From NCBI RefSeq assembly GCF_016907755.1, contig NZ_JAFBCN010000001.1, positions 3,038,001 to 3,102,000 on the forward strand: a stretch of 64,000 nucleotides of DNA, read 5' to 3'. The notes under the pieces were generated by a model. It did not search any database, was not told the origin of the DNA, and saw only the letters and a program-made list of their open reading frames with translations. The stretch's first letter is position 1, and every line of letters begins with the position of its first letter. This DNA comes from Cellulosimicrobium cellulans (GTDB taxonomy: Bacteria; Actinomycetota; Actinomycetes; Actinomycetales; Cellulomonadaceae). Shown in pieces: positions 14,525 through 40,425 of this stretch. The position numbers and the translations under genes were made by a program.

Positions 14525-17500
14525 ATGACGTCTACGCACTCGAGCCGACGAGGGAGAGCGGCGATCGCCCTCTCCCTCGCGGCCGTCCTGGGAGGAACCC
14601 TCCTCGGACCACCGGCGGCCGCGGAGGAGGCCGCGGACGGTTTCAGCGAGGTCCTCAGCTTCGAGGCCTACCAGCGCACCGCCCTGAACGGTCAGGACGG
14701 CTGGTCCGCCTCGTCCGCGGCGCGGGTCATCGCCGACCCGCTCAACGGCAACAACCAGGTCCTCGAGATGGTCGGGGGCACCCAGCGCGCCCACCGTGCC
14801 GTCCCCGGGATCGCCGACGGCACGACCGGGACCGTGTTCTTCCGCTTCATGCGGACAGGGAGCGTCGACACGTCGTTCGGCATCACGGACAACGACGCGC
14901 CGTCCGACTACGCGCACAGCCGCGCGTACGTGAACAACCAGAACAACGACGTGATGCTCGTGCGCGACGGCGGCGCCTTCAAGCCCGCCGGCGTCTGGTC
15001 GCGCGACACGTGGCAGTGCGTCTGGATCGTCGCCGACAACGCGACGGACAAGGTCAGCGTCTACAGCCAGGGCGGCCCGTACGAGGAGATCACCCGGCTG
15101 CCCGAGGGCACGGAGCAGCAGTTCGGCTTCCGCCAGGGCGTGACCTCGGCGCTCGACCGGTTCTTCTGGATCAACGGCGCCAGCAGCGCGGGCCGCCTCA
15201 TGCTCGACGACGTCGCGGTCGACACGGCCGGGCAGAACCTCGCGATCCCGACGGGCAACCCCGCCGACTGCGCCGCGGGCGGCACGACGCCGAACGAGCC
15301 GCTGCTCAACCCGCTGCCCGACCCGACGCCGTCGACCCTCGGCATCGAGGTGACGGAGCTCGCCCAGCTCCCGGCGTCGCAGACGACCCCGGCGACGCAG
15401 GACCCGCGCCTCGTGCGCCACAACCGCATCACGCACCTCGACGAGATCCCCGACGGCTCGGGCCGCCTCATGGTGCCGGACAACAACGCGGTCCTCTACA
15501 CCGTCGACAAGGACACGGGCGCGTACGTGCCCTACCTGGACGTGCGCCAGCAGTTCCTCGACAACTTCCACAACAGCGCCGGCCTCGGCACCGGGCTCGG
15601 CTCCGCCGAGTTCCACCCCGACTTCGCCGAGAACGGCTTGTTCTACACGGTCCACACCGAGGGCGGCACGGCGCTGACGGAGGACACCCCGGACTACCCC
15701 GCATACGGCAACACCCAGTTCCACAGCGTCGTCACGGAGTGGAAGGCGACCGACCCGTCCGCACCGGTCTTCGAGGGCACGAGCCGCGAGGTCCTGCGCG
15801 TGCCGTTCGCCGGCCGCGTGCACACGGTGCAGCAGATCGCGTTCAACCCCACGGTCTCCGAGGGTGACGCCGACTACGGCAACCTCTACGTCCTCGTGGG
15901 CGACGGCGGCAACGGCGTCGGCAACGGCAACCCGCAGAACCTCGCCACGCCCCAGGGCAAGATCTTCCGCATCGACCCGCTGGGCGACGACAGCGCCAAC
16001 GGGCGGTACGGGATCCCCGCGGACAACCCGTTCGTCGGGACGGCCGGCGCGCTGCCGGAGATCTACGCGGTCGGCATGCGCGACCCGCACCGGATCAGCT
16101 GGGACCCCGAGGGCGACCACACGATGTACCTCGGGCACATCGGCGAGTGGCAGGTCGAGTCGGTGTACGCCGTCGAGCCGGGCGACAACTTCGGCTGGTC
16201 CGTGCGCGAGGGGTCGTTCCGCGCCGACAACCGGCAGATCTACCCGCTGCCCGCGAACGACGCCGAGAACGGCTTCACGTACCCCGTGGCCGCCTACGAC
16301 CACAACCGCGACCCCGGCCAGACCGGCGACGCGGGCGTCGCGCTCAACGGCGGGTTCGTCTACCGCGGCGACATCCCCGAGCTGCGGGGGCGCTACCTCT
16401 TCACCGACCTCGTGCGCGGCTGGGTGCTCGCCACCGAGCAGGACGAGATGGTGCGGGGCGACGGCGACCTCGCGGACCTGGCCGAGATCGAGCACCTGCG
16501 CGTGTTCGCCGACGGGCAGGAGACGACGTTCCAGGAGCTCGTCGGCGACCAGCGCGTCGACCTGCGCTTCGGGTCCGACGCCGACGGCGAGCTGTACCTG
16601 ATCTCGAAGGCCGACGGGAAGATCTGGCAGGTCACCGGCGCCCGGCGCGTCGGGGCGTCCTCGCCCGTCGTGCTCCCCGAGCTCGCCGGGAACGTCGCGG
16701 CGCACTACGACTTCGACCACCCGGTCACGGGCTCGACGACGTGGGAGGCGGACCAGGGCTGGTCCGGCACGAACATCCAGCTCGTCAACGGCGGGGTCGA
16801 GATGCGTGTGGCCGACCGGGCCTACCCCGGTGCGGGCGAGGCGCTCCAGACGCAGCAGATGAGCCCGCTCACGGCGTCGAACGACGACTGGAAGGCCGGC
16901 GTCTACGACCCCGCGGGCGTGGACTCGCTCGGCGCCTTCGCGGACGCGGACGAGATCTCGGTCATGGGCTGGTTCAAGCCGACCGGCGAGCACCCGGCCC
17001 TCAACTCGGGCACCGTGAACCCCGACGACCGCTACAACGCGATCGGGCTCGCCGGCGTCCTCACCGGGACCTCGGACGGCCACGCGGTGCGCGCGCTCCT
17101 CGAGGTCATCACGGTCGGGAACGAGCTCAAGCTCGTCGCGCTCGGCCGCCGGGTCGACGGCGCCGGGTCCTGGACGTTCGCGGCCGACCTGCCGTGGGAC
17201 CAGATCCTCGAGCGGAACCGCTGGGTCCACCTCGCCGCCACGTTCGACTTCGCGGGCGGCGAGATGAAGCTCTACATGAACGGCGAGGAGCTTGAGGGCC
17301 AGTACACGGCCTCGAACCCGTGGGGCGCGGGCGCGACCTCCCCATCCGACCCCGCCGGGCTCAAGATCGGGGGCAGCTTCCCGCAGAACACGCGCGAGGC
17401 CAACCCGTTCCACGGTCGCATGGACGACCTCATGTTCCTCGACACCGTCCCGACGCCGGAGCAGGTCGCGGCGCAGTACGCCCGGTTCGGGGCGCAGCCG

Positions 17501-18421
17501 GTCGAGCCCCCGGCCCCGCCGTCGTGCGCGCCTGCGGGCGAGCCGATCACGGACGTCCTGGCGGCCGAGCACTGGGCGCCGCGCACGCCGTCGAAGTGGC
17601 AGTTCCCCGGCGACAAGATCGTCCTCGCCCAGGCGGGCGACAACCCGAACGACGGCATCCGCCGACCGTTCGAGTACGCCGTCCTCACCGAGGGTCCCGA
17701 GCTCGGCTCGTTCGCGCTCGACGCCGAGGTGAAGCTCGACGCCCCCGCGTCGGTGAACAACCGGGACGTGATCGTGGTGTTCGGCTGGCAGTCGGACACG
17801 CAGTACTACTACGCGCACCTGTCGCAGGACAACACGATCTACGCCCACAACGGCATCTTCAAGGTCGACGGCAAGGACCGGGAGCGGATCGACGACCAGT
17901 GGGACGGCGCGGTCGGGGCTCCCCCGGCCGTCACCGACGAGGAGTGGCACGACGTGCGCGTCGTGCGCTGCGCGGACAGCGGCGACATCGCCGTCTACCT
18001 CGACGGCCTCGACACCCCGCTCCTCACGGCGAACGACACGACGTTCGCCGAGGGACGCGCCGGCTTCGGCTCGTTCGACAACACCGGCAGCCTGCGCGGC
18101 CTCGTGGTCACGCCCGCCGCGGAGCCTGCCGGGGTCGCGCTCGACGTGACGGTCTCCCCGCGGTGCCTCGCGGGCAAGGCGTACCTCGCCGTCGCGGCGA
18201 CGAACGCGTCCGACGTCCCGGCGGACGTGACGCTCACGACGGCGTTCGGATCGCGGACGGTCGCGGACGTCCAGCCCGGCAAGGCCGCCTATCAGTCGTT
18301 CGCGTCGCGGGCGACGGCGTTCGACGCAGGGACGGTCGCGGTCTCCGCGACCGCGACGGTCGACGGCGAGGAGGTGACGGGCGAGGTCGTCGTCGAGCAC
18401 GACGCGCTCACGTGCGGGTGA
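14525..18421 (+). CDS. Secreted multidomain PQQ/sorbosone-type sugar dehydrogenase with concanavalin-like domains
   Basis: This is a 1298-aa exported protein. A signal peptide covers residues 1-37. Next is a concanavalin-like jelly roll (about 40-245). A six-bladed glucose/sorbosone dehydrogenase propeller follows (about 285-710; AFNPTVSEGDADYGNLYVLV, IYAVGMRDPHRISWDPEGDH). A LamG-like domain spans 720-990. A second jelly roll resembling DUF1080/3-keto-disaccharide hydrolases spans 1000-1195. Last comes an about 90-residue module (1209-1298) with two Cys that also ends the protein starting at 27479. The family oxidises sugars with PQQ, and the substrate here is unknown. ATG 14525 has GGAG seven bases upstream and gives a clean signal peptide. 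A LacI-type operator controls it. Confidence 0.88.
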   Translation: MTSTHSSRRGRAAIALSLAAVLGGTLLGPPAAAEEAADGFSEVLSFEAYQRTALNGQDGWSASSAARVIADPLNGNNQVLEMVGGTQRAHRAVPGIADGTTGTVFFRFMRTGSVDTSFGITDNDAPSDYAHSRAYVNNQNNDVMLVRDGGAFKPAGVWSRDTWQCVWIVADNATDKVSVYSQGGPYEEITRLPEGTEQQFGFRQGVTSALDRFFWINGASSAGRLMLDDVAVDTAGQNLAIPTGNPADCAAGGTTPNEPLLNPLPDPTPSTLGIEVTELAQLPASQTTPATQDPRLVRHNRITHLDEIPDGSGRLMVPDNNAVLYTVDKDTGAYVPYLDVRQQFLDNFHNSAGLGTGLGSAEFHPDFAENGLFYTVHTEGGTALTEDTPDYPAYGNTQFHSVVTEWKATDPSAPVFEGTSREVLRVPFAGRVHTVQQIAFNPTVSEGDADYGNLYVLVGDGGNGVGNGNPQNLATPQGKIFRIDPLGDDSANGRYGIPADNPFVGTAGALPEIYAVGMRDPHRISWDPEGDHTMYLGHIGEWQVESVYAVEPGDNFGWSVREGSFRADNRQIYPLPANDAENGFTYPVAAYDHNRDPGQTGDAGVALNGGFVYRGDIPELRGRYLFTDLVRGWVLATEQDEMVRGDGDLADLAEIEHLRVFADGQETTFQELVGDQRVDLRFGSDADGELYLISKADGKIWQVTGARRVGASSPVVLPELAGNVAAHYDFDHPVTGSTTWEADQGWSGTNIQLVNGGVEMRVADRAYPGAGEALQTQQMSPLTASNDDWKAGVYDPAGVDSLGAFADADEISVMGWFKPTGEHPALNSGTVNPDDRYNAIGLAGVLTGTSDGHAVRALLEVITVGNELKLVALGRRVDGAGSWTFAADLPWDQILERNRWVHLAATFDFAGGEMKLYMNGEELEGQYTASNPWGAGATSPSDPAGLKIGGSFPQNTREANPFHGRMDDLMFLDTVPTPEQVAAQYARFGAQPVEPPAPPSCAPAGEPITDVLAAEHWAPRTPSKWQFPGDKIVLAQAGDNPNDGIRRPFEYAVLTEGPELGSFALDAEVKLDAPASVNNRDVIVVFGWQSDTQYYYAHLSQDNTIYAHNGIFKVDGKDRERIDDQWDGAVGAPPAVTDEEWHDVRVVRCADSGDIAVYLDGLDTPLLTANDTTFAEGRAGFGSFDNTGSLRGLVVTPAAEPAGVALDVTVSPRCLAGKAYLAVAATNASDVPADVTLTTAFGSRTVADVQPGKAAYQSFASRATAFDAGTVAVSATATVDGEEVTGEVVVEHDALTCG

Positions 18422-18455
18422 CCCCCCGCGCATGAGCGCCACCTCCTGACCGCGT

Positions 18456-18511
18456 GAGCCGCCCCGGCCGCGCCGGCTGCGTCCGACCAGCCGGCGGGTC
18501 CGGGGCGGCTC
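18456..18511. terminator. Nested hairpin terminator between convergent genes
   Basis: The outer 12-bp arms (18456-18467 and 18500-18511) are perfect and enclose a second perfect 9-bp hairpin (18471-18479 with 18488-18496). It sits between the stops of the sugar dehydrogenase and the FUSC gene and could serve both strands. Confidence 0.7.
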
Positions 18512-18560
18512 GTGCGTCCCGGTTCCGGCGTGGTGCGGGAGCGACGGAGCAAGACTGCGG

Positions 18561-19712
18561 TCAGGTGGCGGCGAGGACCGCCGCACCGCGCCGGAGGGCG
18601 AGCACGACCGCACCCGCGACGAAGTAGTCCTCGTCGTCCTCCTGCCGCGCCTCCCGGACCGCCCTGCGCAGGTCCTCGGCGCGGGCGGCCACGGCGCGCA
18701 GCGCCTCCTCGTCGGCAGGCTCGGCGCCGACGGAGCGCAGGGCGGCGGCGTAGGCGTCGAGCGCACGGGCCGCGAGCGGGCGCAGGCGGGCTCCCAGCGC
18801 CAGGTCGTCGCGCCCCTCGCGCTCCCACTCGACGAGGAGCCGGACGAGCGACCCCACCACGTCCGCGGACACCTCCAGCTCGTGCGAGCGCCGCACCTGG
18901 GAGACCGCCCAGTCCCGGTGCCGGCGCAGGCGGATGTTCGCCCGCGCGGCCTCGCGCGTGCGCGCGACGGCGTCGCGCGCACGGGCGAGCGTCGGCTCCA
19001 CCTCGCGGCGGCGCTCCTCCCACTCCTCCGCGGACGGCGGCCGCTCCCCGTCGAGCCCGTCCGCGAGCGCGTCGACCTGGTCCACGAGCGTGTCGCGCAG
19101 CCCGTCGAGCGCCTCCTCGGTCGGCGTGAGCGGGAGCGGCGGGACCAGGAGGTTGATCCCGACGCCGATCGTCGCGCCCACGACGACGAGCCCGGCGTAG
19201 GCGCCGACGAACTCGACCTTGGCCGCGTTGCCGATGATGAGGACGAACAGCGCCGACGTCACCGCCCACGTGCCCATCTCGCCGAAGCGACGCCACCCCG
19301 AGCACAGGAGCGCGAGGCCGACGACGAGCGCGACGGACAGCGCGCTCGGGGAGAGGACGAGATCGACGCCGCGCGCGATGGCCGCGCCGACGAGGATCGC
19401 GAGGATCGCCTGGGTGGACTCGCGGACCGAGCGCGCGAGCGTGCTCGTCGTCGCGACGACGGCGCCCAGCGGCGCGTAGTAGGGGTAGTCGGAGAACGGC
19501 TCGGGCGCGAGCACGCCGACGAACCAGGCGAGCGCGGCCGCGACCGCTCCCTTGACCGCGAGCGACCAGCGAGGGTGCCGCACCCAGCGCCGCGCCGCGG
19601 CGGCGACGGCACGGCGCGCCCAGGTCGCCCCCTCGCCCCCTGGCACGTGGGGCGCTGCCCGGTCGTCGGTCGTCACGAGCACGAGGATCGCGCGTCGTGC
19701 CCGCACCCGCAC
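18561..19712 (-). CDS. FUSC/aromatic-acid-exporter family membrane protein
   Basis: This is a 383-aa inner-membrane protein. Six or so helices between residues 45 and 185 make one FUSC (fusaric-acid-resistance) bundle (DYPYYAPLGAVVATTSTLARS is the typical helix 2 region). A long cytoplasmic helical part then runs to the end (residues 195-383). The family exports aromatic acids or contributes to envelope function. No substrate can be assigned. GTG at 19712 is taken as start because CCTCCCC (GGGGAGG on the coding strand) lies five bases upstream. It is divergent from the alcohol dehydrogenase gene. Confidence 0.82.
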   Translation of the reverse strand: MRVRARRAILVLVTTDDRAAPHVPGGEGATWARRAVAAAARRWVRHPRWSLAVKGAVAAALAWFVGVLAPEPFSDYPYYAPLGAVVATTSTLARSVRESTQAILAILVGAAIARGVDLVLSPSALSVALVVGLALLCSGWRRFGEMGTWAVTSALFVLIIGNAAKVEFVGAYAGLVVVGATIGVGINLLVPPLPLTPTEEALDGLRDTLVDQVDALADGLDGERPPSAEEWEERRREVEPTLARARDAVARTREAARANIRLRRHRDWAVSQVRRSHELEVSADVVGSLVRLLVEWEREGRDDLALGARLRPLAARALDAYAAALRSVGAEPADEEALRAVAARAEDLRRAVREARQEDDEDYFVAGAVVLALRRGAAVLAAT

Positions 19713-19870
19713 GCCGCCTCCCCGCCGCTCGCCGAGGTGTGAGCGGGTCGGGCCGGTGCTTCACTGGCGACGTCGGTGCAGAGTCCCGCCGACGCCGTCG
19801 GGCACGGTGGCGTCCCAGGCGTGCTGACGCCGCCGCGGTCGGCACGACGACCACGGAAGGACGACGACTG

Positions 19871-21076
19871 ATGCGAGCACTGACCTGGCAGGGACGCGAG
19901 AAGGTGAGCGTCGAGGACGTGCCGGACCCCCGGATCGAACAGCCCACGGACGCGGTCGTCCGCGTGACATCGACCGCGATCTGCGGCTCCGACCTGCACC
20001 TGTACGGGGTGCTCGGAATGTTCCTCGACGCGGGCGACGTCCTGGGCCACGAGGCGATGGGCGTCGTCGAGGAGGTGGGCCCGGAGGCCGGGAACCTCCA
20101 CGTCGGCGATCGCGTCGTGATCCCGTTCAACATCGCGTGCGGGCACTGCTGGATGTGCGAGCGCGGCCTCCAGACCCAGTGCGAGACGACGCAGGTCCGC
20201 TCGCAGGACAAGGGCGCCGCGCTCTTCGGGTACACCAAGCTCTACGGCCAGGTCCCCGGGGGCCAGGCACAGTACTTGCGCGTGCCGCAGGCCCAGTACG
20301 GCCCCGTCGTCGTGCCCGACGACGGGTCGCCGGACGAGCGCTACCTCTACCTGTCGGACGTCCTGCCCACCGCATGGCAGGCGGTCGAGTACGCCGACGT
20401 CCCGCCCGGCGGCACGGTCGTGGTCCTTGGCCTCGGCCCGATCGGCCAGATGTCCGCGCGCATCGCCCTGCACCGAGGGGCGGCGCGCGTGGTGGGCGTC
20501 GACCTCGTGCCCGAGCGGCGGGCGATGGCCGAGCGCCACGGAATCGAGACGCTCGACCCGACGGCGGTCGACGACCTCCCGGCCGCGGTGCGCGACCTGA
20601 CGGCGGGGCGCGGGGCGGACTCCGTGATCGACGCGGTCGGCATGGAGGCCCACGGCTCTCCCGTAGCGGAGGCGACGCAGAAGGTGGTGGGACTGCTGCC
20701 AGACCTGCTGTCCGCGCCCCTCACCGAGCGCGCCGGGGGCGACCGCCTCGCCGCCCTCTACAACGCGTTCGACCTCGTCCGCCGCGGCGGCACGGTGTCC
20801 ATCTCGGGCGTCTACGGCGGCGCCAAGGACCCCCTGCCGATGATGCAGCTCTTCGACAAGCAGGTGACGCTGCGCATGGGTCAGGCGAACGTGCGCCGCT
20901 GGACCGACGACGCACTCCCCCTCGCCGCCGACGTCTCCGACCCCCTCGGCGTCCTGGACCTGCGCACGCACCGGCTCTCCCTGGAGTCCGCGCCCGCGGC
21001 GTACGGGATGTTCCAGCGCAAGGAGGACGGCTGCGTCAAGGTCGTGCTCGACCCGTGGTCCGAGGCGACTCGATGA
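19871..21076 (+). CDS. Zinc-dependent medium-chain alcohol dehydrogenase
   Basis: This is a 401-aa cytosolic NAD(P)-dependent oxidoreductase. The catalytic zinc ligands are Cys38 (CGSDLH) and His in GHEAMG. Four structural-zinc Cys lie in GHCWMCERGLQTQC and just before it. The nucleotide-binding motif is GLGPIGQM. Length and layout match the glutathione-independent formaldehyde dehydrogenase/sugar-alcohol dehydrogenase branch. The substrate is not identifiable. ATG follows GGAAGG. Its stop overlaps the start of a broken downstream gene (ATGA). Confidence 0.9.
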   Translation: MRALTWQGREKVSVEDVPDPRIEQPTDAVVRVTSTAICGSDLHLYGVLGMFLDAGDVLGHEAMGVVEEVGPEAGNLHVGDRVVIPFNIACGHCWMCERGLQTQCETTQVRSQDKGAALFGYTKLYGQVPGGQAQYLRVPQAQYGPVVVPDDGSPDERYLYLSDVLPTAWQAVEYADVPPGGTVVVLGLGPIGQMSARIALHRGAARVVGVDLVPERRAMAERHGIETLDPTAVDDLPAAVRDLTAGRGADSVIDAVGMEAHGSPVAEATQKVVGLLPDLLSAPLTERAGGDRLAALYNAFDLVRRGGTVSISGVYGGAKDPLPMMQLFDKQVTLRMGQANVRRWTDDALPLAADVSDPLGVLDLRTHRLSLESAPAAYGMFQRKEDGCVKVVLDPWSEATR

Positions 21077-21290
21077 CCGGCACCCGGCGCACCGACCGCG
21101 ACCTGCTGGCGATCTACCTCGACGACCACGTGGCGGCGCGACGGTCGGGGTTGCGCCGCGAGGATGGCCCGCGCCTACGCCGAGAAACCCGTGGGCGCCG
21201 TCCTGGGCCCGCTGGCCGAGAGCTGCGTGACGAGCGCACGTTCCTCCTGGCCACGGCTCCGGCCGCCGGTGCCGACGCGCCCGTCGTCGG
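21073..21290 (+). pseudogene. Frameshifted, truncated remnant of a small conserved actinobacterial gene
   Basis: The ATG overlaps the alcohol dehydrogenase stop and opens LLAIYLDDHVAARRSG. Near base 21163 the sense continues only in another frame (MARAYAEKPVGAVLGPLAE). Near 21220 it returns to the first frame (ELRDERTFLLAT). Joined, these resemble a family of about 170 residues that begins L-x-x-YL-x-DH and continues with P-x-G and D-R-x-x-L motifs. No stop follows before the opposite-strand CDGSH gene. Two compensating frameshifts plus the missing 3' half mark it as decayed, unless the assembly is wrong here. Confidence 0.55.
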
Positions 21291-21306
21291 CTCCCCCGCC
21301 GCGTTC

Positions 21307-22919: not shown

Positions 22920-25900
22920 TCAGCCGCACGACAGGGCGTCGTGCTCCGCGGTGACCGTGCCCGTCCCTCCCTCGGCGTCCGTCGCCGCGACGCTGACGCT
23001 GCCGGCGCCGAGCTCGTCCGACCGGGTACCGAACGACTGGTAGGCGTTCTTGCCCGGTGCGACGTCCTCGAACGTCTTGGTGCCGTAGGGCGTCTCGATC
23101 GTGATGTCGAGCGGGACGTCCTCGTCGTTGAGCGCACGGACGGCGAGGTAGGCCTTGCCCGCGAGGCACCGCGGCTGCGCCGTCACCGTGACCGTCCGCT
23201 CGTTCGCGCCGGCCGGCTGGCCGGTGAGGTACTCGAACCCGGTGGTGGCGAAGCCCTCGCCGTCGGCGGCGAGGTCGTACTCCATCACGTAGTAGTCGAC
23301 GCCGGCCTCCTGCGCCGCCGCAAGGATCTCCTGCAGCGGCACGTCACCGTCACCGAGGTTGGTGAACGTCGGGCCGTCCTCGGTCCCCAGGTCGACCGCG
23401 TCCTTGATGTGCGTGAGCGCGATCCGGTCGCCGTACTGCTCGATGAGCGCCGGCACGTCGACGCCGGCGTGCGTCGCCCAGCCGACGTCCAGCTGGAACG
23501 TCACGAGCTCCGGGTCGGTCTCGCGGACCAGGATCTCCCAGGCGGAGAGCGTCTCGCCCTCGTGCTCGTACGTGGTGGTGAACTCCCGGTCGTGGTTGTG
23601 ACCGAAGAACTTCACCAGCCCCGCGTCCACGGTGCGCTGACCGAGGCGGTTCATCGCCTCGGCGGTGGCGATCGTGTTCTCGTAGGTGCCGATCCCCGGC
23701 TGGGGGAAGCCACCCGAGCCCACGTACTCCTGGCCCAGCGTGGAGACGTAGTCGAGCGTGGCGTCGAACGTGCCCTCGTCGACGTTGTAGTGCGAGGACT
23801 TGACGCTCAGGCCGTACGAGTCGGCCAGCGCGCGGAACTCCTCCGCCGTGTAGCCGGCGAAGTTGCCGCCGAACGGCTCGATGTTCTGGAACCCGATCTC
23901 GGACAGGCGCTCGAGGACGGCTGGCAGGCCCACCTCGTTGACCCACGGGATCAGCGAGAACATCTGGATCGAGACCTGGTCCACCGGGACCGTGACCGGC
24001 TCGGTGGGCTCGTCCGGACCGCCCGCGGGCTCACCGGTGAGGTACTCGTACCCGGTGGTGGCGAAGTCCTCGCCGTCCGGGGCCTGGTCGTACTCCATGA
24101 CGTAGTACACGACGCCGGCCTCGGCCGCGGCGGACAGGATGCCCTGCAGGGGGACGTCCCCGTCACCGAGGTTCGTGAACCTGATGCTCGAGCCGAGCCC
24201 GGTCGCGTCCTTGATGTGGAGGAGCTCGATCCGGTCGCCGTGCTGCTCGAGCAGCGCCGCGACGTCCACGCCCGCGTGAGCGGCCCACGCGACGTCCACC
24301 TCGAACGTCACGTACTCCGGGTTCGTCTCCGCCACGAGGATCTCCCAGGCGGACATCTCGACGCCGTCGTGCACGTACTTCGTGGTGAACTCGCGGTCGT
24401 GGTTGTGGCCGAAGAACTTCTCGAACCCGGCCGCCACGGCCCGCTCACCGAGACGGTTCATCGCCTCGGCGGTGGCCAGCGTGTTCTCGTAGGTGCCGAT
24501 CCCCGGGGAGGGGAAGCCACCCGATCCCACGTACTGCTGCCCGACCTCGCCCACGTACTCGAGCGTCGTGTCGAAGTCCGCCTCGCCCACGTTGTAGTGC
24601 GACGACGGCGCCTTCAGGCCCGCTGCGTCGGCCTGCGCACGGAACTCCTCGCCCGTCAGGCCGGCGTAGTTGCCGCCGTACGGCTCGACGTTCTGGAGCC
24701 CGATCTCGCCCAGACGGTCGAGCACGGCCTGCTGGCCGTCCGCCCGGACCCACGGGATCAGCGAGTAGAGCTGGATGGACACCTGGTCGGCCGGGACGAC
24801 GACGTTGCGCCCGAAGGTCAGGTTGTCGACGTCCACACCACCGGTGCTCGTCACGACGAGCGTCCCGGTGCCCTCCGGCACCTCGGTGAGCGTGCGGCTG
24901 GCGTCCTTCCAGGTGTCACCGGCGAAGCGGAACTCGGCGAGCGAGTCGACGGTCTCGCCGTCCGCACCCACCCAGCCGAGCGAGACGGTGCCCTCGCCGC
25001 GGCCGATCATGGTCACGCTGTTGATCGGGTCACCGGTCGGGGCGTGCGTGAAGGCGATCGGCTTGTAGGAGAACGAGTCGCCCTCGTCGAGCGAGGAGAC
25101 GTAGTACCCGGCGTCCGCCGTGTCGTCCTGCACGAGCTCGACGCCCTCGGCCGCGTCGTACCACTCCGCCTGCTGCTCCTGCGGCTTGAGGATGTGCGTG
25201 GCCTCGCCCCGGATGGCCGGGACGCTGCCCTGCGCCTGGTCGGTGTAGGTCACGACGAGGGTGCCGTAGATCTTCTCGCCCTCGCCGTGCTCGACCGCGT
25301 CGGGGCTGGTCTGGATCGTGAACCCGCACCCGTCCGCCGTGTCCGCGGCCCGCCCGCTCACCTCGGGGTGCGCGTGCGTGTTGTGGCCCAGACCGAACGT
25401 GTACTGGATGTTGCGGCACGTCGGCTGGTTGCCGTCCTCGGCGTCCTCGACCGAGACGGTGTACGGGACGGCGTCGCCCCAGTCGAAGATCGCCCCGTCG
25501 GGCTGGTCCAGGGTGATGACGGGGGCGGTGTTGCCGACCGTGATCTGCTGGATCGCGAGACCGAAGTTGCCGCCCGCGTCGGTGACGCGCAGCTGCACGT
25601 TGAACTGGCCGAGCTCGGTGAACGTGTGCGTGACGGTCACGCCCTGGGCGTCGTAGACGCCGTCGGAGTCGAAGTCCCAGTCGTAGACGAGCTCGCCGGC
25701 CGGGGTCTCGGCGTCGGTCGAGGCCGACGCGTCGAAGGTCACCTCGAGCGGGGCGGTGCTGCCCGAGACCGGGTCGGCCGAGATGAAGGCCCGCGGGTGG
25801 GTGTTCGACGACCCGTAGACGACCTTGTACAGGCCGGCGTCCGGGTTCTGGCGGAAGAAGCCGTCACCGTACTCCAGCACGTACAGGGCGCCGTCCGGAC

Positions 25901-27479
25901 CGAACTCCATGTCCATGACGTTGTCCCAGATCGGCTGGTTGACCGTCTCCAGGTGGTCGTTCGGCAGGAAGTTCTCGACCGCGGTGACCTCACCGGCGGA
26001 CGAGAGCTCGTCCAGGGTGAACGCCGCGACGTAGTCCTGCGAGAACTCCGCCATGAACGGGTGCCCGTCCCAGTACGCGGGGAACTTGACGTCCGAGTCG
26101 AGGTTCTCGTCGTAGCGGTAGATCGGGCCACCCATCGGGGCCTGGCCCGTGCCGCCCCATGCCGTCAGCGGGTCGAGCAGCTCCGGCTGGTCGCCGGGGT
26201 TGTCGCCGTAGTAGACCTGCGGCGCGGTCGCGGGCGGCACGACGTCCAGGCCGGTGTTCCACGTCGAGTTGTTCTCGGCGCCGGCCTCGCAGTCGAAGAA
26301 GTCTCCCGGCGTCGACGTCGCGTAGTCCCACTCGTTGTAGTTCGCGTTGGGACCGTGGCAGTACGGCCAGCCGCCGTTCATCGGCTCGGTCGTGAGCTGC
26401 CACTCGACGTAGCCCATGGGCCCCCGGTTCGGGTCCGCCGCGGCCGCGTCCGGTCCGTAGTCGCCCCACACGAGCGCGCCGGACTCGACGTCGTAGTCGA
26501 TGCGGAACGGGTTGCGCACACCCATGACGTAGGTCTCGTTCCGCACGAGGTCCTGGACGTCGTCGTACTGCGGGTCGTCGAAGAGGTTGCCCTCGGGGAT
26601 CGTGTACGTGCTCCCCGGGCCGACCTCGGTGTCTGCGGCGAGGTCCTCGATCGGGTTGATCCGCAGGATCTTGCCGCGCAGATCGTTGGTGCTGCCGGCG
26701 CCGCGACGGTCGTCGAAGCCGGGGTTCATGCCCGGGGCGTTGTTGTTGGGCGCGTAGCCGTTCGCGCCCGGGGTGCTGGCCGGGGTGTTGTCACCGGTCG
26801 AGAGGAACAGGTTCCCCTCGGCGTCCCACGCCATGTCCGCGCCCACGTGGCAGCACTGCCCTCGTTGCGCGTCCACCTTGAGGATCTCGCGCTCGGTGGA
26901 GAGGTCGATCGCGTCGGTCGCCGGGTCCCACGTGAAGCGCGAGAGCTGGTTGTACCCGAGCCACCGGTCCCAGTAGCTCTCGTCCTCGCCCGTCGGCAGC
27001 GAGTTCGGAGCGCTCCCCGACGGGGTCGTCTCCGGGTACTCCACGCCGGAGGGCGAGACGCCGTCCATCACGCGGGGTGCGTAGACCAGGTACAGCCAGT
27101 GGTTCTCCTCGAAGTCCGGGTCGAGGGAGATGCCCTGCAGCCCGTCCTCGGAGTTGGAGTAGACGTCGAGGTCCGCGATCTGGGTGGTCAGCCCCGTCGC
27201 GGAGTCGGTGAGGCGCACGACGCCGTCGCGCGCGGTGTGCAGGACCCGGGAGTCAGGCAGGACGGCGAGGTCGATCGGCTCGCCGGTGTTCTTGCTGAGC
27301 AGCACCTTCTCGTAGTTGTCCCAGTCGATCGCCTCGTCGGCGGCCGGTGTCGCTTCCTCGTGCCCGGGGTGCGCGCCGGCTGCGCTGATCGACAGCGGTA
27401 CCAGCACCACGGCGGACAGGACCGCGGCGATCCCTCGTCTGGCGAGCCTGCGAGGGCCCATGGTCGTTCGTCTGTGCAC
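22920..27479 (-). CDS. Secreted fusion: sugar dehydrogenase, PKD, tandem sugar-isomerase-like TIM barrels, shared C-terminal module
   Basis: This is a 1519-aa exported protein. A signal peptide covers residues 1-36. A glucose/sorbosone dehydrogenase-like propeller follows (about 45-555; CCHVGADMAWDAEGNLFLST, YVMGVRNPFRIDYD). A PKD domain spans 560-650. An Ig-like or ThuA-associated segment runs to about 770. A CBM6-like jelly roll spans 773-893. Two xylose-isomerase-like TIM barrels (894-1157 and 1163-1423) are near-duplicates (FFGHNHDREFTT in both). The final module (1430-1519) matches the end of the protein starting at 14525. Such barrels isomerise, epimerise or hydrate keto-sugars. It starts at GTG 27479, with AAGGAGGA five bases before. 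Confidence 0.87.
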   Translation of the reverse strand: MHRRTTMGPRRLARRGIAAVLSAVVLVPLSISAAGAHPGHEEATPAADEAIDWDNYEKVLLSKNTGEPIDLAVLPDSRVLHTARDGVVRLTDSATGLTTQIADLDVYSNSEDGLQGISLDPDFEENHWLYLVYAPRVMDGVSPSGVEYPETTPSGSAPNSLPTGEDESYWDRWLGYNQLSRFTWDPATDAIDLSTEREILKVDAQRGQCCHVGADMAWDAEGNLFLSTGDNTPASTPGANGYAPNNNAPGMNPGFDDRRGAGSTNDLRGKILRINPIEDLAADTEVGPGSTYTIPEGNLFDDPQYDDVQDLVRNETYVMGVRNPFRIDYDVESGALVWGDYGPDAAAADPNRGPMGYVEWQLTTEPMNGGWPYCHGPNANYNEWDYATSTPGDFFDCEAGAENNSTWNTGLDVVPPATAPQVYYGDNPGDQPELLDPLTAWGGTGQAPMGGPIYRYDENLDSDVKFPAYWDGHPFMAEFSQDYVAAFTLDELSSAGEVTAVENFLPNDHLETVNQPIWDNVMDMEFGPDGALYVLEYGDGFFRQNPDAGLYKVVYGSSNTHPRAFISADPVSGSTAPLEVTFDASASTDAETPAGELVYDWDFDSDGVYDAQGVTVTHTFTELGQFNVQLRVTDAGGNFGLAIQQITVGNTAPVITLDQPDGAIFDWGDAVPYTVSVEDAEDGNQPTCRNIQYTFGLGHNTHAHPEVSGRAADTADGCGFTIQTSPDAVEHGEGEKIYGTLVVTYTDQAQGSVPAIRGEATHILKPQEQQAEWYDAAEGVELVQDDTADAGYYVSSLDEGDSFSYKPIAFTHAPTGDPINSVTMIGRGEGTVSLGWVGADGETVDSLAEFRFAGDTWKDASRTLTEVPEGTGTLVVTSTGGVDVDNLTFGRNVVVPADQVSIQLYSLIPWVRADGQQAVLDRLGEIGLQNVEPYGGNYAGLTGEEFRAQADAAGLKAPSSHYNVGEADFDTTLEYVGEVGQQYVGSGGFPSPGIGTYENTLATAEAMNRLGERAVAAGFEKFFGHNHDREFTTKYVHDGVEMSAWEILVAETNPEYVTFEVDVAWAAHAGVDVAALLEQHGDRIELLHIKDATGLGSSIRFTNLGDGDVPLQGILSAAAEAGVVYYVMEYDQAPDGEDFATTGYEYLTGEPAGGPDEPTEPVTVPVDQVSIQMFSLIPWVNEVGLPAVLERLSEIGFQNIEPFGGNFAGYTAEEFRALADSYGLSVKSSHYNVDEGTFDATLDYVSTLGQEYVGSGGFPQPGIGTYENTIATAEAMNRLGQRTVDAGLVKFFGHNHDREFTTTYEHEGETLSAWEILVRETDPELVTFQLDVGWATHAGVDVPALIEQYGDRIALTHIKDAVDLGTEDGPTFTNLGDGDVPLQEILAAAQEAGVDYYVMEYDLAADGEGFATTGFEYLTGQPAGANERTVTVTAQPRCLAGKAYLAVRALNDEDVPLDITIETPYGTKTFEDVAPGKNAYQSFGTRSDELGAGSVSVAATDAEGGTGTVTAEHDALSCG

Positions 27480-35500: not shown

Positions 35501-35593
35501 GGTCGCCTCTCGTCCGGGGCGACGCGGTCGGCGCGACCCCTCGGGTGGAGAGACCGCCCCGGCGCACGATCATGACGCCGGGACGGCCTCGCG

Positions 35594-35607
35594 GTGACGG
35601 ACGTCAC
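35594..35607 (-). promoter_or_regulatory. 14-bp element GTGACGTCCGTCAC upstream of the ECF sigma gene
   Basis: It lies about 95-107 bases before the sigma start. It matches 12 of 14 bases with an element upstream of the adhesin gene (37547-37560). It is a near-palindrome. A promoter element read by the sigma factor itself is the likeliest reading. Confidence 0.5.
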
Positions 35608-35621
35608 CACGTCCCGGGACC

Positions 35622-37475
35622 TCAGGCCCGGGCGCGGTGCCGCGCGACGACGACCACCACCCCGGCCGCGACGAGCAGGGCCGCGGCGAGGGTCGCGACG
35701 CCGAGGGTCATGCCGGTGACCGCCAGGGCCTCGCTCGAGGCCGGCGCCGTGGGCTGCGGCGCCCCGGGAGCCGGGGGTTCGACGTTCTCCGCGGGGCCGC
35801 CGGGCTCCTCCGGCACGCCCGGCGCGTCGGCCTCGTTCGTCAGGACGGCCTCCGCCGTCGTGCCGTCGCCGACCACGACGCGCGCCGCGCCGTCCGCCAG
35901 CACCTCCACCCCGTCGCCGGAGAACGCCGGTGTCCGCCACACCACCCCGTCGAGCGCCGCGGGCGCGGCCTCGACGAGCGTGACGACCGTGCCCGCGGGC
36001 AGGTCCGCGAGCGCCGCCGTGGACCCGTCCGTGACGACCAGCTCCCCGGTCACCTCGCCCTCGGGGCCCTCGTAGGCGTAGCCGACGGCGAACTCGGTCC
36101 CGTCCGCCACGGCGTCGGCGGCGGACCCCGTCACGCGCTTGGTCACGGCGATCCCGCCGACGTGCGCGTCGAAGGTGTTCGTCGCGACGACGTCGATCGT
36201 CGTGGGCGAGTCCGCGGTGACCTCGATCGGGCCGGCAGGGGCGAAGGTCACGCGGTCCGCTCCTCCGTCTTCGGTCTCGGTCAGCCCGCACACCGCCCCT
36301 ACCGGGACGCCCGCGAACGTCGTCGTCGCCCCCGCGGAGACGGTGGCGGCGCGCGGGAACCCTGCCAGCGGTGCGCCGTCCGCGTCGGTGCAGGCCAGCT
36401 CGAAACCGAACGGCCCGGTCACCCCCTCCGCGGCGTCGCCGTCGAGCTGCTTGGCGAGCCGGATCGAGCGCACGCCCTCGCCGCCGCCGGTCCCGCCGGC
36501 CCCGGCGTACTCCGCCGACGCCTCGACGTCTCCCGAGGCGAGGCCGGTGACCGTGTTCTCGTACCGGTCGCCGTCGCGCGCGTCGTCGGGGACCGAGGTC
36601 GCGTACGTGAGCACGTAGACGTGGTCGGCACCGTGGGCGTCGGGCACGCTGAACCGGAACTGGTTCGCGGCCGGTCCCGTCTCGACGACGTAGTCCGCAG
36701 GATCCATCCAGAAGCCCGCGTCCCAGAAGTCGCCGTCGTCCCAGCGGTCGACGGGCACCGCGAGCGCCCCGACGCTGCCCTCGACCAGGGTGAGGCGCGG
36801 GTCGAACGTGTCCGTGAGCACGACCGGGTCGCCGTCCGGGCCGGTGAGGTACTGGCCGGGCACGTACACGTCCCAGCGCACGACGCCGTCCCAGCGGTCG
36901 TACCAGCCGCCCTTGACGGGGTACGTAGGTGGCTGCCAGCCCCCGCCGCCCTCGCCTTCGCCGATGCCGCCGGGGACGTCGACGCGGATCTCGACACCGC
37001 CGCCCGTGGTGAACACGAGCACGTCGGCATCGGTCGTCTCCGTCACCTGGGCCCAGAAGAACAGCGTCCCCGCGACGCCCGTGTGCGTCGCGACGTAGTC
37101 GCCGAGGGTGCAGACGAACTGCGTCTCGTCGACCGTGCACGAGCCGACCACCGCACCCGAGGGGTCGGTGAGGTCGAACGTGTCGGTGAACCCGACGATG
37201 CGCGGGCTCGTGGGGAGCGCGAGGCGGAACGTGTCACCCGGGCGTGCGTCGTCGGGCACGGCCCACGTGGCGTCGAGGCGGATCGAGTCCCACTGGTGGA
37301 TCTGCCCGGTGGGACGGGTGATCTCGACGCCGGTGATCGCGTCGAGCTCGGTGGCGCTCGCGGCCGTGGGGACGGCGGCGAGGCTCAGCAGGGCGAGCAG
37401 CAGCGCGACCGCGCCGGCGAGGGCGCGGCGCGCGGGCGAGGTGCTCGCGCGCGGGGGGCGGGCGGTGGGGGGCAC
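35622..37475 (-). CDS. Sortase-anchored surface adhesin with Ig-like and DUF5979 domains
   Basis: This is a 617-aa surface protein. A signal peptide spans about residues 1-41. Two adhesin-type Ig folds span about 45-345 (GVEITRPTGQIHQWDSIRLD, ENTVTGLASGDVEASAEY). Two DUF5979 beta domains lie at about 355-550. A Pro-rich stalk comes next. The cell-wall sorting signal is LAVTG (584-588), a hydrophobic helix and a basic tail ARHRARA. LAxTG is the motif of class E sortases in high-GC actinobacteria. No sortase is in the window. GTG 37475 follows AAGGAG. A perfect hairpin precedes that ribosome site. Confidence 0.88.
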   Translation of the reverse strand: MPPTARPPRASTSPARRALAGAVALLLALLSLAAVPTAASATELDAITGVEITRPTGQIHQWDSIRLDATWAVPDDARPGDTFRLALPTSPRIVGFTDTFDLTDPSGAVVGSCTVDETQFVCTLGDYVATHTGVAGTLFFWAQVTETTDADVLVFTTGGGVEIRVDVPGGIGEGEGGGGWQPPTYPVKGGWYDRWDGVVRWDVYVPGQYLTGPDGDPVVLTDTFDPRLTLVEGSVGALAVPVDRWDDGDFWDAGFWMDPADYVVETGPAANQFRFSVPDAHGADHVYVLTYATSVPDDARDGDRYENTVTGLASGDVEASAEYAGAGGTGGGEGVRSIRLAKQLDGDAAEGVTGPFGFELACTDADGAPLAGFPRAATVSAGATTTFAGVPVGAVCGLTETEDGGADRVTFAPAGPIEVTADSPTTIDVVATNTFDAHVGGIAVTKRVTGSAADAVADGTEFAVGYAYEGPEGEVTGELVVTDGSTAALADLPAGTVVTLVEAAPAALDGVVWRTPAFSGDGVEVLADGAARVVVGDGTTAEAVLTNEADAPGVPEEPGGPAENVEPPAPGAPQPTAPASSEALAVTGMTLGVATLAAALLVAAGVVVVVARHRARA

Positions 37476-37488
37476 GGCGGTTCTCCTT

Positions 37489-37514
37489 CACTCCTGGACG
37501 GGTGTCCAGGAGTG
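37489..37514 (-). promoter_or_regulatory. Perfect 11-bp hairpin directly before the adhesin ribosome site
   Basis: Arms CACTCCTGGAC (37489-37499) and GTCCAGGAGTG (37504-37514) enclose four bases and end one base from the AAGGAG of the adhesin gene. The right arm contains its own AGGAG. It may be an operator, or a leader RNA hairpin that presents or hides the ribosome site. Confidence 0.55.
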
Positions 37515-37546
37515 AGGACGCGACACGAGGCGGATCATCACGCGAC

Positions 37547-37560
37547 GTGTCGCACGTCAC
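37547..37560 (-). promoter_or_regulatory. 14-bp element GTGACGTGCGACAC upstream of the adhesin gene
   Basis: It lies 72-85 bases before the start and matches the sigma-gene element at 35594-35607 at 12 of 14 positions, both reading toward their genes. A shared promoter for the membrane-tethered sigma factor is proposed. Confidence 0.5.
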
Positions 37561-37588
37561 GTCCGGGCCTCCCCCGGCGGCGGGCCCC

Positions 37589-38857
37589 TCAGCGCGTCGG
37601 TGGGTGCGCCCACGCCAGCGCGTCCGCGATCCCGCCGCGCCAGCACGCGTCGTCGTGGCCGCCGTCGAACTCGCGGTACGCCACCTCGCACCCGGCCGCC
37701 CGCAGCCGTCCGACGGCAGCCGGGTGCTCCGGACGCAGGACCCATTCCTGGGTGCCGACCTCGACCCACGCGCGCGTCCCGGCCAGCGCGCCGGGCGCCA
37801 GACCCGCGCTCGGGTCGCCCTGCCACAAGGACGCGGACTGGCTGATCGCCGCGCCTACCCGGTCGGGGTGCGCGGCGAGCACGCGCAGGGACGTGAGCGC
37901 GCCGAGCGACTGGCCCGCGACGCTCACGGCACCGCGTCCGGAGCGCACCGGGAGGCTGGCGCGGGCCCAGTCCAGGAGGTCGTGCGCAAGGTAGGCGTCC
38001 ATGCCGCCGCCCCCGTCGAGCTCGCCCCAGCGCCGCTCGCGCGACCCGGCGTCGAGCAGGACGGCGCGCAGCGGCCGCACCGCGCCGTCGTGATGCAGGT
38101 TGTCGAGCGTCGTGGCGAGGTCCTGCGACCCCGTCCACGCGTCGCCGTCGAGCGCGAGGACGACGTCGGTCGCCGTACCCTCCGGCACGGGTGGCTCGTA
38201 GACCCAGGCGCGACGGCCACCGGGCGCCGCCTGATCCGTGACGGCGCCGCGTGCGACGCCCGGCCGCCGCTCGACGTACGGCTGCGGCGGGGCGTCGGGG
38301 AGCTCGACGACGGACTGCACCTGGCCCGCGCGGTTGCGGCACGTGCGCGGGTTGCGCGGGTCCGGGCGCCCGACGAGGTCGAGCGCACGTCGCAGCGCCG
38401 CCTGGTCCGGTGCGTCCCACGGGGCCGGGCCGTCGCCGCGATGTGCCAGCACGGCGTACGAGGCACGCCACGTCGTCGCCATCCGGTAGGAGAGGTGCCA
38501 GACGTCGGTCCCGGGCACGCGTGCCATGAGACTGTCGGCCAGGTTCCGCTCGTCGGTGAGGCGGTTGACGAACAGCAGCACCGCGCGGGCGCCCCCGTCG
38601 CGGACGAGGAAGGTCGCCACCGCCTCGCCCGGGCCCGCGGTCTCGACGACGGGCGACGCTCCCGCGCCCTCCGACCAGAACCGCTCGACCACGGCGTCTC
38701 GGCGTCCCGGGGACGCTGCGAGCGCCGCCTCGAGCCGCTCGACCACGGGCCCGACGACGCGCGGCGCCGGCTCCGGGCGGGGCACCTTGGGCGGGGTGCG
38801 CCGCAAGCGCGCGACCGGCCGCCCGGGAGGCGCCTCCGGGTCGGGGTGCGGGGGCAC
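37589..38857 (-). CDS. Enterochelin-esterase-like alpha/beta hydrolase
   Basis: This is a 422-aa protein of the enterochelin esterase (Fes) type. Residues 40-180 match the N-terminal domain (VVLFVNRLTDERNLADSLM-like, with GTDVWHLSYRM). Residues 220-420 form the esterase fold with nucleophile elbow GQSLGA and catalytic His in GGHDDACWR. Fes enzymes hydrolyse catecholate tri-lactone siderophores in the cytosol to release iron. GTG 38857 is preceded by AAGGAG. No iron box is seen here, though a siderophore importer lies at 60-64 kb. It could also serve another ester. Confidence 0.85.
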   Translation of the reverse strand: MPPHPDPEAPPGRPVARLRRTPPKVPRPEPAPRVVGPVVERLEAALAASPGRRDAVVERFWSEGAGASPVVETAGPGEAVATFLVRDGGARAVLLFVNRLTDERNLADSLMARVPGTDVWHLSYRMATTWRASYAVLAHRGDGPAPWDAPDQAALRRALDLVGRPDPRNPRTCRNRAGQVQSVVELPDAPPQPYVERRPGVARGAVTDQAAPGGRRAWVYEPPVPEGTATDVVLALDGDAWTGSQDLATTLDNLHHDGAVRPLRAVLLDAGSRERRWGELDGGGGMDAYLAHDLLDWARASLPVRSGRGAVSVAGQSLGALTSLRVLAAHPDRVGAAISQSASLWQGDPSAGLAPGALAGTRAWVEVGTQEWVLRPEHPAAVGRLRAAGCEVAYREFDGGHDDACWRGGIADALAWAHPPTR

Positions 38858-38910
38858 TCGGACGCTCCTTCGGACGGTTCCTGGACGCCGCGACTGTACC
38901 GGGGACGCAC

Positions 38911-38950
38911 GACGGCGCCCGCCGCACGGGAGGGTGCGACGGGCGCCGTC
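38911..38950 (-). terminator. Hairpin terminator after the ThuA gene
   Basis: Arms 38911-38921 and 38940-38950 are perfect (11 bp), with a further inner CGCAC/GTGCG pairing. It lies 30 bases after the ThuA-protein stop. Confidence 0.7.
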
Positions 38951-38979
38951 GGTGCACCGGGTGCCGACGAGGAGGCTCG

Positions 38980-40425
38980 TCAGGCGGTACCGGCGTAGGC
39001 GAGGACGATCTCCTCGGTGACGGTCTCGCCGTCACGCTCGACGGTGGCCGTCACGGTCACCTCCCCGGCCGGGGCCTCGACGAGCCGGGTCGCGAACGCC
39101 TGGTAGGCGTTCTTCCCGGGCGCCACGTCGGCGTACTCCTTGCTCCCGTACGGCGTCGCGAGGCTGATGTCGACGGGGGCGTCGTCCTCGTTGAGCACAC
39201 GCACGGCGACGTACTGCTTGCCGCCCATGGTCCGCAGCTCGGCCTCGGCCGCGAGGTCGATCGCCGGGCCGTCGTCGACGAGCGCGCCCTGCCACACGAC
39301 GAGGTCGTCGATCTTCGACGCGAGCAGGTCCCGGTCTCCCGCGGCCGCGGACAGGTGGTCGACGAGCGACCGCGCGCCGCCGAGCACCTGGACCGCCGTC
39401 GTCGGGTCGCCCGCCTCGGCGGCGGTGCGCGCGCTGCCGAGCAACGAGCCGATCGCGCCCGCGATCACGCTGTCGCCCACCGCGGAGGTGTTCAGGCCGG
39501 CCACGACGCCGTCGACCTCGGGGAACGTCACGCAGTTGCCGCCGCCCTCGACGACGCCCGCGGTCCACTCGACGCCATGGAGCACGTGCTCGCGGAAGAG
39601 CGGGTCCGTCCACGACTCGTCGGTGTGCCCGGCGCCCTCGTACCAGGAACGGCCGCCCTCGAAGTTCTGGCACCACGAGAGCGGGTGGTCCTCGCCCATC
39701 GCACCGTTGCCGGGCGAGTAGGTCGACTCGTCGAGCGTGAGGAGCACGTGCACGTCCGCACGGGGGTTGACCGAGTAGTTGTACCACTCGTCGAACCGCT
39801 CCCAGACGGCCGGCAGGTGCGCGGTAGAGGGGTGCGCCGGGCTCTCGACGCGCATCGTCGCGGTCTGCTGCTGCGGGTGGGCGACGAAGCGGGCGCCACC
39901 TCCCGTCAGCTCGCTGTACCAGGGGACGGTGTGCATCGTGTCGGTCGCGGCGTGCAGCCCGACGAACCCGCCGCCGTCGTGGATGTAGCCCTGGAGCGCC
40001 GCGAGCTCGGTGTCGTCGAGCAGGCGTGGCGTCGCGGGGTTCAGCGAGTTCGTGTTGTCGACGGGCGAGACGAAGACCAGCGTCGCGTACTGCGACAGGT
40101 CCTCGGCGCTCGTGAACGGCGTCGAGTCCATCGTGAGGTCGGGCTGCCCCGGCGAGCCGTTCCCCCACCAGCCCGCGGAGTCGTTCGGCGGGTCCCACAC
40201 GTCGACCGTGAACCCGTTGTCCTCACCGAGCTCGATCAGCGCGCGCGTCGTGTCGTCGATGTGCGAGTGCCGGAACCCGAGCGTCTTGCCGACGACGAGG
40301 ATCTTGTAGTCCTCCTCGTCGGCGGCCGCCGGGCCCGCGGCCACGAGCGTCGCCCCTCCGGCGAGGGGCAGCGCGACCGCCGCCGCCACCGCCCGTCTGA
40401 CTGTCGTACCGCTGAACAAATCCAT
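38980..40425 (-). CDS. Secreted ThuA-domain protein with shared C-terminal module
   Basis: This is a 481-aa exported protein. A signal peptide runs to about residue 36. A ThuA domain (glutamine-amidotransferase-like, trehalose-utilisation family) spans residues 42-280 (DYKILVVGKTLGFRHSHID, GGFVGLHAATDTMH, FDEWYNYSV). A helical spacer of about 85 residues follows. The last 85 residues match the C-terminal module of the secreted dehydrogenases, but without its two Cys. ThuA proteins act on keto-sugars in known pathways, and the chemistry is unsettled. ATG 40425 follows GGGAGAAGC and gives a proper signal peptide. It shares the GACTTTTGA upstream element with the 1519-aa gene. Confidence 0.86.
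   Translation of the reverse strand: MDLFSGTTVRRAVAAAVALPLAGGATLVAAGPAAADEEDYKILVVGKTLGFRHSHIDDTTRALIELGEDNGFTVDVWDPPNDSAGWWGNGSPGQPDLTMDSTPFTSAEDLSQYATLVFVSPVDNTNSLNPATPRLLDDTELAALQGYIHDGGGFVGLHAATDTMHTVPWYSELTGGGARFVAHPQQQTATMRVESPAHPSTAHLPAVWERFDEWYNYSVNPRADVHVLLTLDESTYSPGNGAMGEDHPLSWCQNFEGGRSWYEGAGHTDESWTDPLFREHVLHGVEWTAGVVEGGGNCVTFPEVDGVVAGLNTSAVGDSVIAGAIGSLLGSARTAAEAGDPTTAVQVLGGARSLVDHLSAAAGDRDLLASKIDDLVVWQGALVDDGPAIDLAAEAELRTMGGKQYVAVRVLNEDDAPVDISLATPYGSKEYADVAPGKNAYQAFATRLVEAPAGEVTVTATVERDGETVTEEIVLAYAGTA

Follow-up and report, generated by a model that had tools for sequence, protein, structure and literature searches.

Type I dockerins, the partners of cohesins in the cellulosome, are short non-catalytic units common to many secreted enzymes. 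Their recognition residues are constant within a species and differ between species. In Bacteroidota, type IX secretion uses an immunoglobulin-like (Ig-like) terminal domain, carried by many secreted enzymes, for export and surface attachment. LPXTG sortase signals (PF00746) are likewise C-terminal surface tags. A module of about 95 amino acids (aa) that invites comparison with these systems ends three proteins encoded in the window considered here, a stretch of 64,000 nucleotides of Cellulosimicrobium cellulans (bases 3038001-3102000 of the single contig, 4,788,922 bases long, that was searched as the genome). It is a real, unnamed and widespread C-terminal domain. Its conservation tentatively suggests, at somewhat less than an even chance, a docking tag for which the producing cell has a single shared partner.

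A multi-enzyme particle has been described in the same genus. The hemicellulosome Xyl_I was purified from C. cellulans F16, and the 27 proteins identified in it include glucanases, xylanases, mannanases, peptidases and laccases (Dou et al. 2015, PMC4562250). According to the main text of that paper, neither cohesin nor dockerin was found in the F16 data, no assembly domain is reported, and the way in which the subunits assemble was left open. The key subunit, M768_06655, has the domain order ThuA, GSDH, PKD, CBM6, PKD (PMC4562250), which is also that of tagged proteins in the present genome, and the Xyl_I subunit classes overlap the tagged proteins in xylanases, mannanases and peptidases. The module itself is not mentioned in the Results or Discussion of that main text, and a search of the open-licence literature, mostly by abstract, found no description of such a domain.

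All three window proteins translate as claimed in a preliminary description, and their shared C-terminal segment is real. Host 1 (14525..18421, + strand; 1298 aa) has, by translation and Pfam, a signal peptide, GSDH, Laminin_G_3 and the module. Host 2 (22920..27479, - strand; 1519 aa, start codon GTG) has a signal peptide, GSDH, PKD, CBM6, two AP_endonuc_2 TIM barrels and the module. Host 3 (38980..40425, - strand; 481 aa by translation and Pfam) has a signal peptide, ThuA and the module. Translation and genome search place copy 1 at 18131..18418 (+), copy 2 at 22923..23189 (-) and copy 3 at about 38983..39264 (-). Copies 1 and 2 contain both cysteines of the module and end the chain with CG; both cysteines are missing from copy 3, as described before. 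When copy 1 is compared with the whole genome, copy 2 is found at E 1.8e-27 and copy 3 at E 1.9e-19, so their likeness is not due to chance.

The motifs reported earlier are also present. Copies 1 and 2 have PRCLAGKAYLAV in common, all three copies contain DV-x-PGK-x-AYQ-x-F (ADVQPGKAAYQSF, EDVAPGKNAYQSF, ADVAPGKNAYQAF), and each has a turn (FGSR in copy 1, YGTK in copy 2, YGSK in copy 3). The AYQSF of copy 1, which corresponds to model positions 56-60 and forms the centre of a conserved patch, lies at 18287..18301 (+) by hand count. The earlier statement that no family name was known holds for the window copies: neither Pfam nor NCBIfam has a model covering the module in the three window hosts at E up to 1, which rules out a named family for them. 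Two further expectations needed amending. The module had been ascribed to three proteins, all of them true cases, and the genome has it in 58 places. The hosts had been called unrelated, which is true of the wider set; those in the window are partly linked, since two have GSDH and the third ThuA, and these two domains are fused in four other tagged hosts of the genome.

The 58 genomic matches are those that copy 1 gives at E up to 0.001, and a profile built from 57 of them finds 59. In 57 of the 58 translated frames the module is the extreme C-terminus. The consensus of the 57 copies reads V-x-A-x-x-RCLAGKAYVAVRATN-x-x-D-x-PVDV-x-L-x-TP-x-G-x-R-x-FA-x-VAPG-x-NAYQSFA-x-R in its N-terminal part and ... 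AG-x-x-TVTAT ... Y-x-A-x-x-CG in its C-terminal part. The terminal position, proposed from three proteins, is borne out in several taxa: among 272 complete, distinct copies, which are the best search matches and not a random sample (only the set from the present genome is near exhaustive), the chain ends no more than six residues past the module in 265. The other seven are four repeats of one protein, two apparent frameshifts (L079, L184) and one copy followed by seven residues (L238).

That one protein is also the sole non-terminal case in the genome, a weak match at E 2.1e-7 inside a long repeat protein. It is encoded at L053:4557-8750 (-), near genome position 4528475, and has 1398 aa, an export signal by a crude rule and four internal, divergent relatives of the module. 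The protein has a DUF11 match, and its four repeats, which the module profile also finds, bring generic Ig repeats of the DUF11 type to mind; they differ from the module in lacking the AYQSF patch and in not being terminal. A repeat of this type is possibly the source from which the tag arose.

The two cysteines behave as a pair. Read by eye, 54 of the 57 genomic copies have both, three have neither and none has one. A script rule applied to 268 copies over several taxa gives 258 with both, six with neither and four with only one, so that the pair is kept or lost jointly in 264 of 268. This supports the proposed disulfide and fits a bond between the two residues. Further copies without cysteines are found at L055:18694-18978 (+) on a GH43 host, at L047:4983-5273 (-) on a host without Pfam match, and at L222 in genome G173.

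An Ig-like fold is likely. Among solved structures, a limit of E 10 leaves five sequences that match the profile, and designed Ig proteins head them; two of these are matched weakly, at E 0.001 for the whole chain and E 3.7-10 for single stretches. The weak matches would also suit a structural cap, that is, a stable disulfide-bonded Ig domain that shields the C-terminus and has no specific partner, as would the fact that in nearly all copies the chain stops zero to two residues past the last cysteine (of 263 counted, G follows in 159, S in 38, A in 26, nothing in 16, and other residues rarely). The few copies without the disulfide speak against such a cap, as does the patch described below, and the cap is judged distinctly unlikely.

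Set beside the known systems, the module differs from dockerins in being probably Ig-like, disulfide-bonded, strictly C-terminal and, by eye, without EF-hand repeats. The Dockerin model (PF00404) has no match in the 58 hosts, of which three were searched to a limit of E 1 and the other 55 to E 0.001. Bacteroidota-type C-terminal domains differ in their setting, as Cellulosimicrobium is Gram-positive, and no Pfam or NCBIfam model of a type IX C-terminal domain matches over the module in the three window hosts at E up to 1. Sortase signals are distinguished by sequence: none of the 57 copies in the present genome has an LPXTG motif, a hydrophobic stretch or a basic tail, and the chain stops right after the last cysteine. 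Counting LPXTG proteins by PF00746 is too unspecific, since a limit of E 1 lets 13 of 14 control genomes match.

The module is present in 17 of 17 Cellulosimicrobium genomes, with 27-64 copies each, in 88 of 221 genomes of the family, in 52 of 396 drawn from the order and in 34 of 394 drawn from the class; the family, order and class draws overlap, and the copy numbers per genome there are lower bounds. Beyond Cellulosimicrobium, many copies are found within the family in g15, g16 and one g17 genome, and some genomes of other families are rich in it too. A restriction to relatives within Cellulomonadaceae and Promicromonosporaceae, as first supposed, does not hold: the module extends to further families of the order and to other parts of the class, across Actinomycetes, for instance in named loci of Planotetraspora, Acrocarpospora and Plantactinospora.

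Most hosts appear to be exported, in agreement with the preliminary description. By a simple, strict rule 49 of the 58 hosts have a signal peptide, and by a looser rule 53; the other five have none by either rule, and one of them runs off the end of the fetched stretch. By Pfam, the 58 hosts include the glycoside hydrolase (GH) families GH92, GH43, GH10 with a deacetylase, GH127, GH26, GH5, GH95, GH97, GH2, GH76 and GH30-like, as well as arabinofuranosidase and pullulanase; hemicellulases and mannosidases are among them. Other hosts are polysaccharide lyase 8, ThuA with GSDH, 3-keto-disaccharide hydrolase, sialidase-like BNR, asparaginase, subtilase, M28 peptidase, nucleotidase, metallophosphatases, PAP2, GDSL and esterase proteins. 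Seven hosts have no enzyme domain, namely L032 and L047, which have no family at all, and five others; only Ig, carbohydrate-binding module (CBM), F5/8-type or DUF11 domains are found in L053, L056:16137-19991, L066, L054:373-5142 and L051:6001-9972. Outside the genus, 72 hosts (mostly their last 600 residues) gave GH43 nine times, 3-keto-disaccharide hydrolase eight, GH95 five and subtilase two, with many CBM and Ig domains besides; these are among the first 25 of 47 families.

Because many hosts are glycoside hydrolases, the module could be thought a CBM for the substrates of the enzymes. This is improbable. Peptidases and phosphatases are among the hosts as well, together with a nucleotidase and a GDSL esterase-type protein; the activities of the tagged families are not known to have a substrate in common. 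Many hosts have known CBMs anyway, and no CBM model of Pfam has its best listed stretch over the module in the 58 hosts. A substrate CBM was rejected on host diversity, and the module is hardly a substrate-specific binding module. Since the host families are unrelated and bring CBMs of their own, what the module binds should be a feature shared throughout the producer and not the substrate. It is optional as well, because two untagged ThuA/GSDH paralogues in the genome simply end without it, by eye in a PKD-like or a 3-keto-disaccharide-hydrolase-like domain.

Something common to the producer may be a polymer. The preliminary suggestion of wall or glycan targeting is possible, and its specific form would be a tag for retention, which by binding a wall or capsule polymer peculiar to the genus, instead of a protein, holds the enzymes on the producing cell. 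The terminal position on exported enzymes of unrelated families would suit it. Wall polymers vary between genera, which could account for patch residues that vary between genera too. No wall-binding family of Pfam was matched in the three window hosts, and this form of the idea is judged unlikely, though far from remote. A docking or assembly tag is at least as likely as wall or glycan targeting because of the conserved patch and the published particle.

The patch is nearly invariant within the genus. In 188 Cellulosimicrobium copies on unrelated hosts, conservation within AYQSF is 99% for Y, 98% for Q and 89% for S, and the following F and R reach 100% and 99%. Elsewhere the Y is found in 50% of 28 copies from other genera of the family and in 60% of 43 more distant copies. 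A structural cap would not predict a patch that is near-invariant in one genus on unrelated hosts and changed in others; in its favour, the patch is loose in genomes G376 and G400 and partly in G169.

For a comparison between lineages, 179 modules from eight genomes were used: 57 from G000 (the present Cellulosimicrobium genome), 36 from G173, 29 from G169, 14 from G376, 13 from G400, 12 each from G731 and G568, and six from G138. The numbers for G731, G568, G400 and G376 are lower bounds, taken from the matches listed and their flanks, and the sets of G169 and G138 lack one of 30 and one of seven known copies. Modules of one genome are 0.41-0.50 identical (0.74 in G731), little over the 0.36-0.45 between genomes. 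In six genomes (161 copies) the columns carrying most information about the genome are 57, 58, 16, 14, 59 and 23. At positions 56-60, 51 of 57 copies of G000 have AYQSF or AYQAF, at least 23 of 29 copies of G169 have A-[SHAQ]-Q-[ST]-F, and eight of 12 copies of G568 among the matches listed have A-x-HAF.

Orthologous hosts make it possible to ask whether the patch follows the host or the genome. Reciprocal-best hosts number 29 for G000-G173 (74% identity), 25 for G000-G169 (69%) and 20 for G173-G169 (69%). Eight columns were chosen from the other genomes only, and the left-out pair was then tested against 1000 shuffles; columns 57-59 were chosen in seven of seven such selections, which share genomes. 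For G000-G169 the held-out columns are about as similar between orthologous hosts (0.525) as between shuffled ones (0.501, p 0.10), whereas in the rest of the module orthologous hosts reach 0.480 against 0.408, a value attained in none of 1000 shuffles. The G173-G169 pair gives 0.326 against 0.324 (p 0.43) for the held-out columns and 0.499 against 0.423 (0 of 1000 shuffles) for the rest. Among 300 column sets matched for variability, a host signal as small occurs in 0.7% (G000-G169) and 1.0% (G173-G169). Thus, in two of three well-populated comparisons, the patch differs between genera regardless of host orthology. Conversion of the whole module is an unlikely cause, because the rest of the module is not homogenised.

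Uniformity within a genome was compared between held-out columns and the rest. It is strong only in G000 (0.67-0.78 against 0.46-0.47); the values are 0.47-0.51 against 0.43 in G173, 0.43-0.50 against 0.45 in G169, 0.47-0.49 against 0.40 in G376 and 0.39-0.46 against 0.42 in G400. The idea of a single partner that selects the patch within each genome is thus well backed for Cellulosimicrobium and more weakly for other genera. The pattern would be a looser version of the species-wise recognition residues of dockerins.

A docking tag would work as follows. After export and disulfide formation, a probably Ig-like domain would terminate dozens of different enzymes. It would be recognised by a single partner, most likely a surface or scaffold protein, through a small patch, to which model positions 14, 16-25 and 57-59 (the last three being YQS here) would contribute. 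The partner might retain the enzymes at the cell surface or collect them into the extracellular multi-enzyme particle of C. cellulans. The tag would then act like a dockerin without being one.

A broader proposal goes beyond the tag itself. It holds that Actinomycetes have a docking system independent of dockerins, in which a disulfide-bonded C-terminal Ig-like tag with a lineage-specific patch, present on tens of enzymes in each genome, is read by one surface or scaffold protein (the sortase-anchored protein discussed below being the foremost candidate), builds the Cellulosimicrobium hemicellulosome and forms genus-specific tag-receptor pairs. This is possible but doubtful. If it were true, actinobacteria would have a second natural, genus-specific route, beside cohesin and dockerin, for gathering many enzymes. 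The assembly of Xyl_I was left open by its discoverers in 2015, and a tag on dozens of enzymes could explain the particle. Were the partner a wall polymer, there would still be an unnamed domain family, present 27-64 times in each Cellulosimicrobium genome, that merits a name and a function.

The key Xyl_I subunit offers a link between the particle and the module. A form of M768_06655 freed by proteinase K and a similar form in the supernatant have masses of 118.3 and 118.5 kDa, about 500 residues being absent from the C-terminus (PMC4562250). Two proteins of the present genome, L037:4971-9992 and L062:5797-10785, show the domain order of M768_06655 and continue with two GH43_C2-type domains before they end in the module. 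If a signal cut is assumed, the L037 protein attains 118.4 kDa at residue 1167 of 1674 and the L062 protein at 1155 of 1663. The remaining 507 and 508 residues include the module and both GH43_C2-type domains. For two other ThuA-GSDH hosts the remainder would be 723 and 159 residues. The match to L037:4971-9992 extends to its last residue, module included, in 15 of 17 genomes of the genus; in the other two it is in pieces (G013) or has no full match (G014, 75% complete). By this reckoning of mass and domain order, the free form of an M768_06655-class subunit has very likely lost the module.

Several results weigh against a docking tag. The subunit was likened by its published domain order and mass, and the tagged proteins come from the present genome, not from F16. 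The freed subunit would lose two other domains along with the module, so that its release is not attributable to the module. The particles, 20-65 nm in size, could be something other than a docked complex. Calcium activates Xyl_I, and its discoverers suggest that calcium stabilises the assembly (PMC4562250); by eye, the module sequence has no calcium motif. Many genomes have only one to four copies among the matches listed.

The patch itself also raises difficulties. It is not a code unique to each genome: AYQSF is also found in 18 of 36 copies of G173 and in 12 of 12 listed copies of G731, which belongs to another family. G376 and G400 have mixed motifs at positions 56-60, where the patch is loose. 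In the third well-populated pair, G000-G173, the held-out columns do carry a host signal (0.578 against 0.515, p 0.001; control 14%), which may be an effect of the similar motifs of these two genomes. The four pairs that involve G376 or G400 mostly give little information, because even outside the held-out columns three of them have no significant host signal and one is marginal (p 0.049). In the G000-G169 test, the G169 copies are less alike among themselves (0.46) than to G000 (0.50). Lineage effects behind the patch pattern are not fully excluded. Finally, the candidate anchor protein introduced below was not found in one flank each of G138, G376, G400 and G568.

Two kinds of protein were considered as the partner of a docking tag. 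One is the cohesin of the genus, of which one protein exceeds the Pfam cut-off in 17 of 17 Cellulosimicrobium genomes. Among 204 other genomes of the family a cohesin occurs in nine, and all nine have the module, against 71 of 204 overall; this association is confounded by relatedness. There is no cohesin match in five of seven g15 genomes, which have at least 12-18 modules, nor in G177, which has at least 19, and a cohesin is thus not present wherever the tag is numerous. This rules out cohesin as an obligate partner. No cohesin-bearing scaffoldin was found, a further difference from the cellulosome, and neither cohesin nor dockerin is reported for strain F16 in the main text of PMC4562250.

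In the present genome, a single-cohesin protein with a sortase-type end, LASTG, is encoded at L048:883-1623 (+). The next gene, L048:1623-3545 (+), encodes an amidase with a dockerin-like domain of its own (22.3 bits against a Pfam cut-off of 22.9), which is the more natural partner, and the pair, located near 2876546-2879208 of the genome, may be self-sufficient. That the single cohesin protein reads the module is very improbable. A tagged GDSL protein follows the pair.

The other is a sortase-anchored protein encoded at L057:9324-9965, after the last tagged gene of a 50 kb hemicellulase cluster, which is a candidate only. Its signal peptide precedes a single domain of about 105 residues, for which Pfam gives no match at E up to 0.1; a linker, LATTG, a membrane span and RRR complete the chain. 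A relative follows a tagged gene in 10 more Cellulosimicrobium-type loci. The anchor domain lies 359-470 bp past the tagged stop codon in nine loci, 1343 bp past it in L091 and 420 bp in G173; in G167 and G169 a relative is found 2.8 and 4.7 kb downstream.

Some further copies and neighbours were observed. A collection of plasmids contains four records that match the module, each over about 60% of the query (NZ_CP052758, NZ_LT559118, NZ_CP040796 and NZ_CP040787). They come from Cellulosimicrobium, Nonomuraea and Clavibacter, and the Nonomuraea record, at 11.9 Mb, resembles a chromosome. A genome labelled Sphaerisporangium cinnabarinum ATCC 31213 has six Cellulosimicrobium-like tagged loci (L094, L101, L118, L119, L132 and L147) and an anchor gene with 80% identity over its domain; the label of this genome may be wrong. 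In the window, the same stretch as the tagged genes contains, at 35628-37487 (-), a surface protein with Big_8, DUF5979 and a sortase-type C-terminus, LAVTG.

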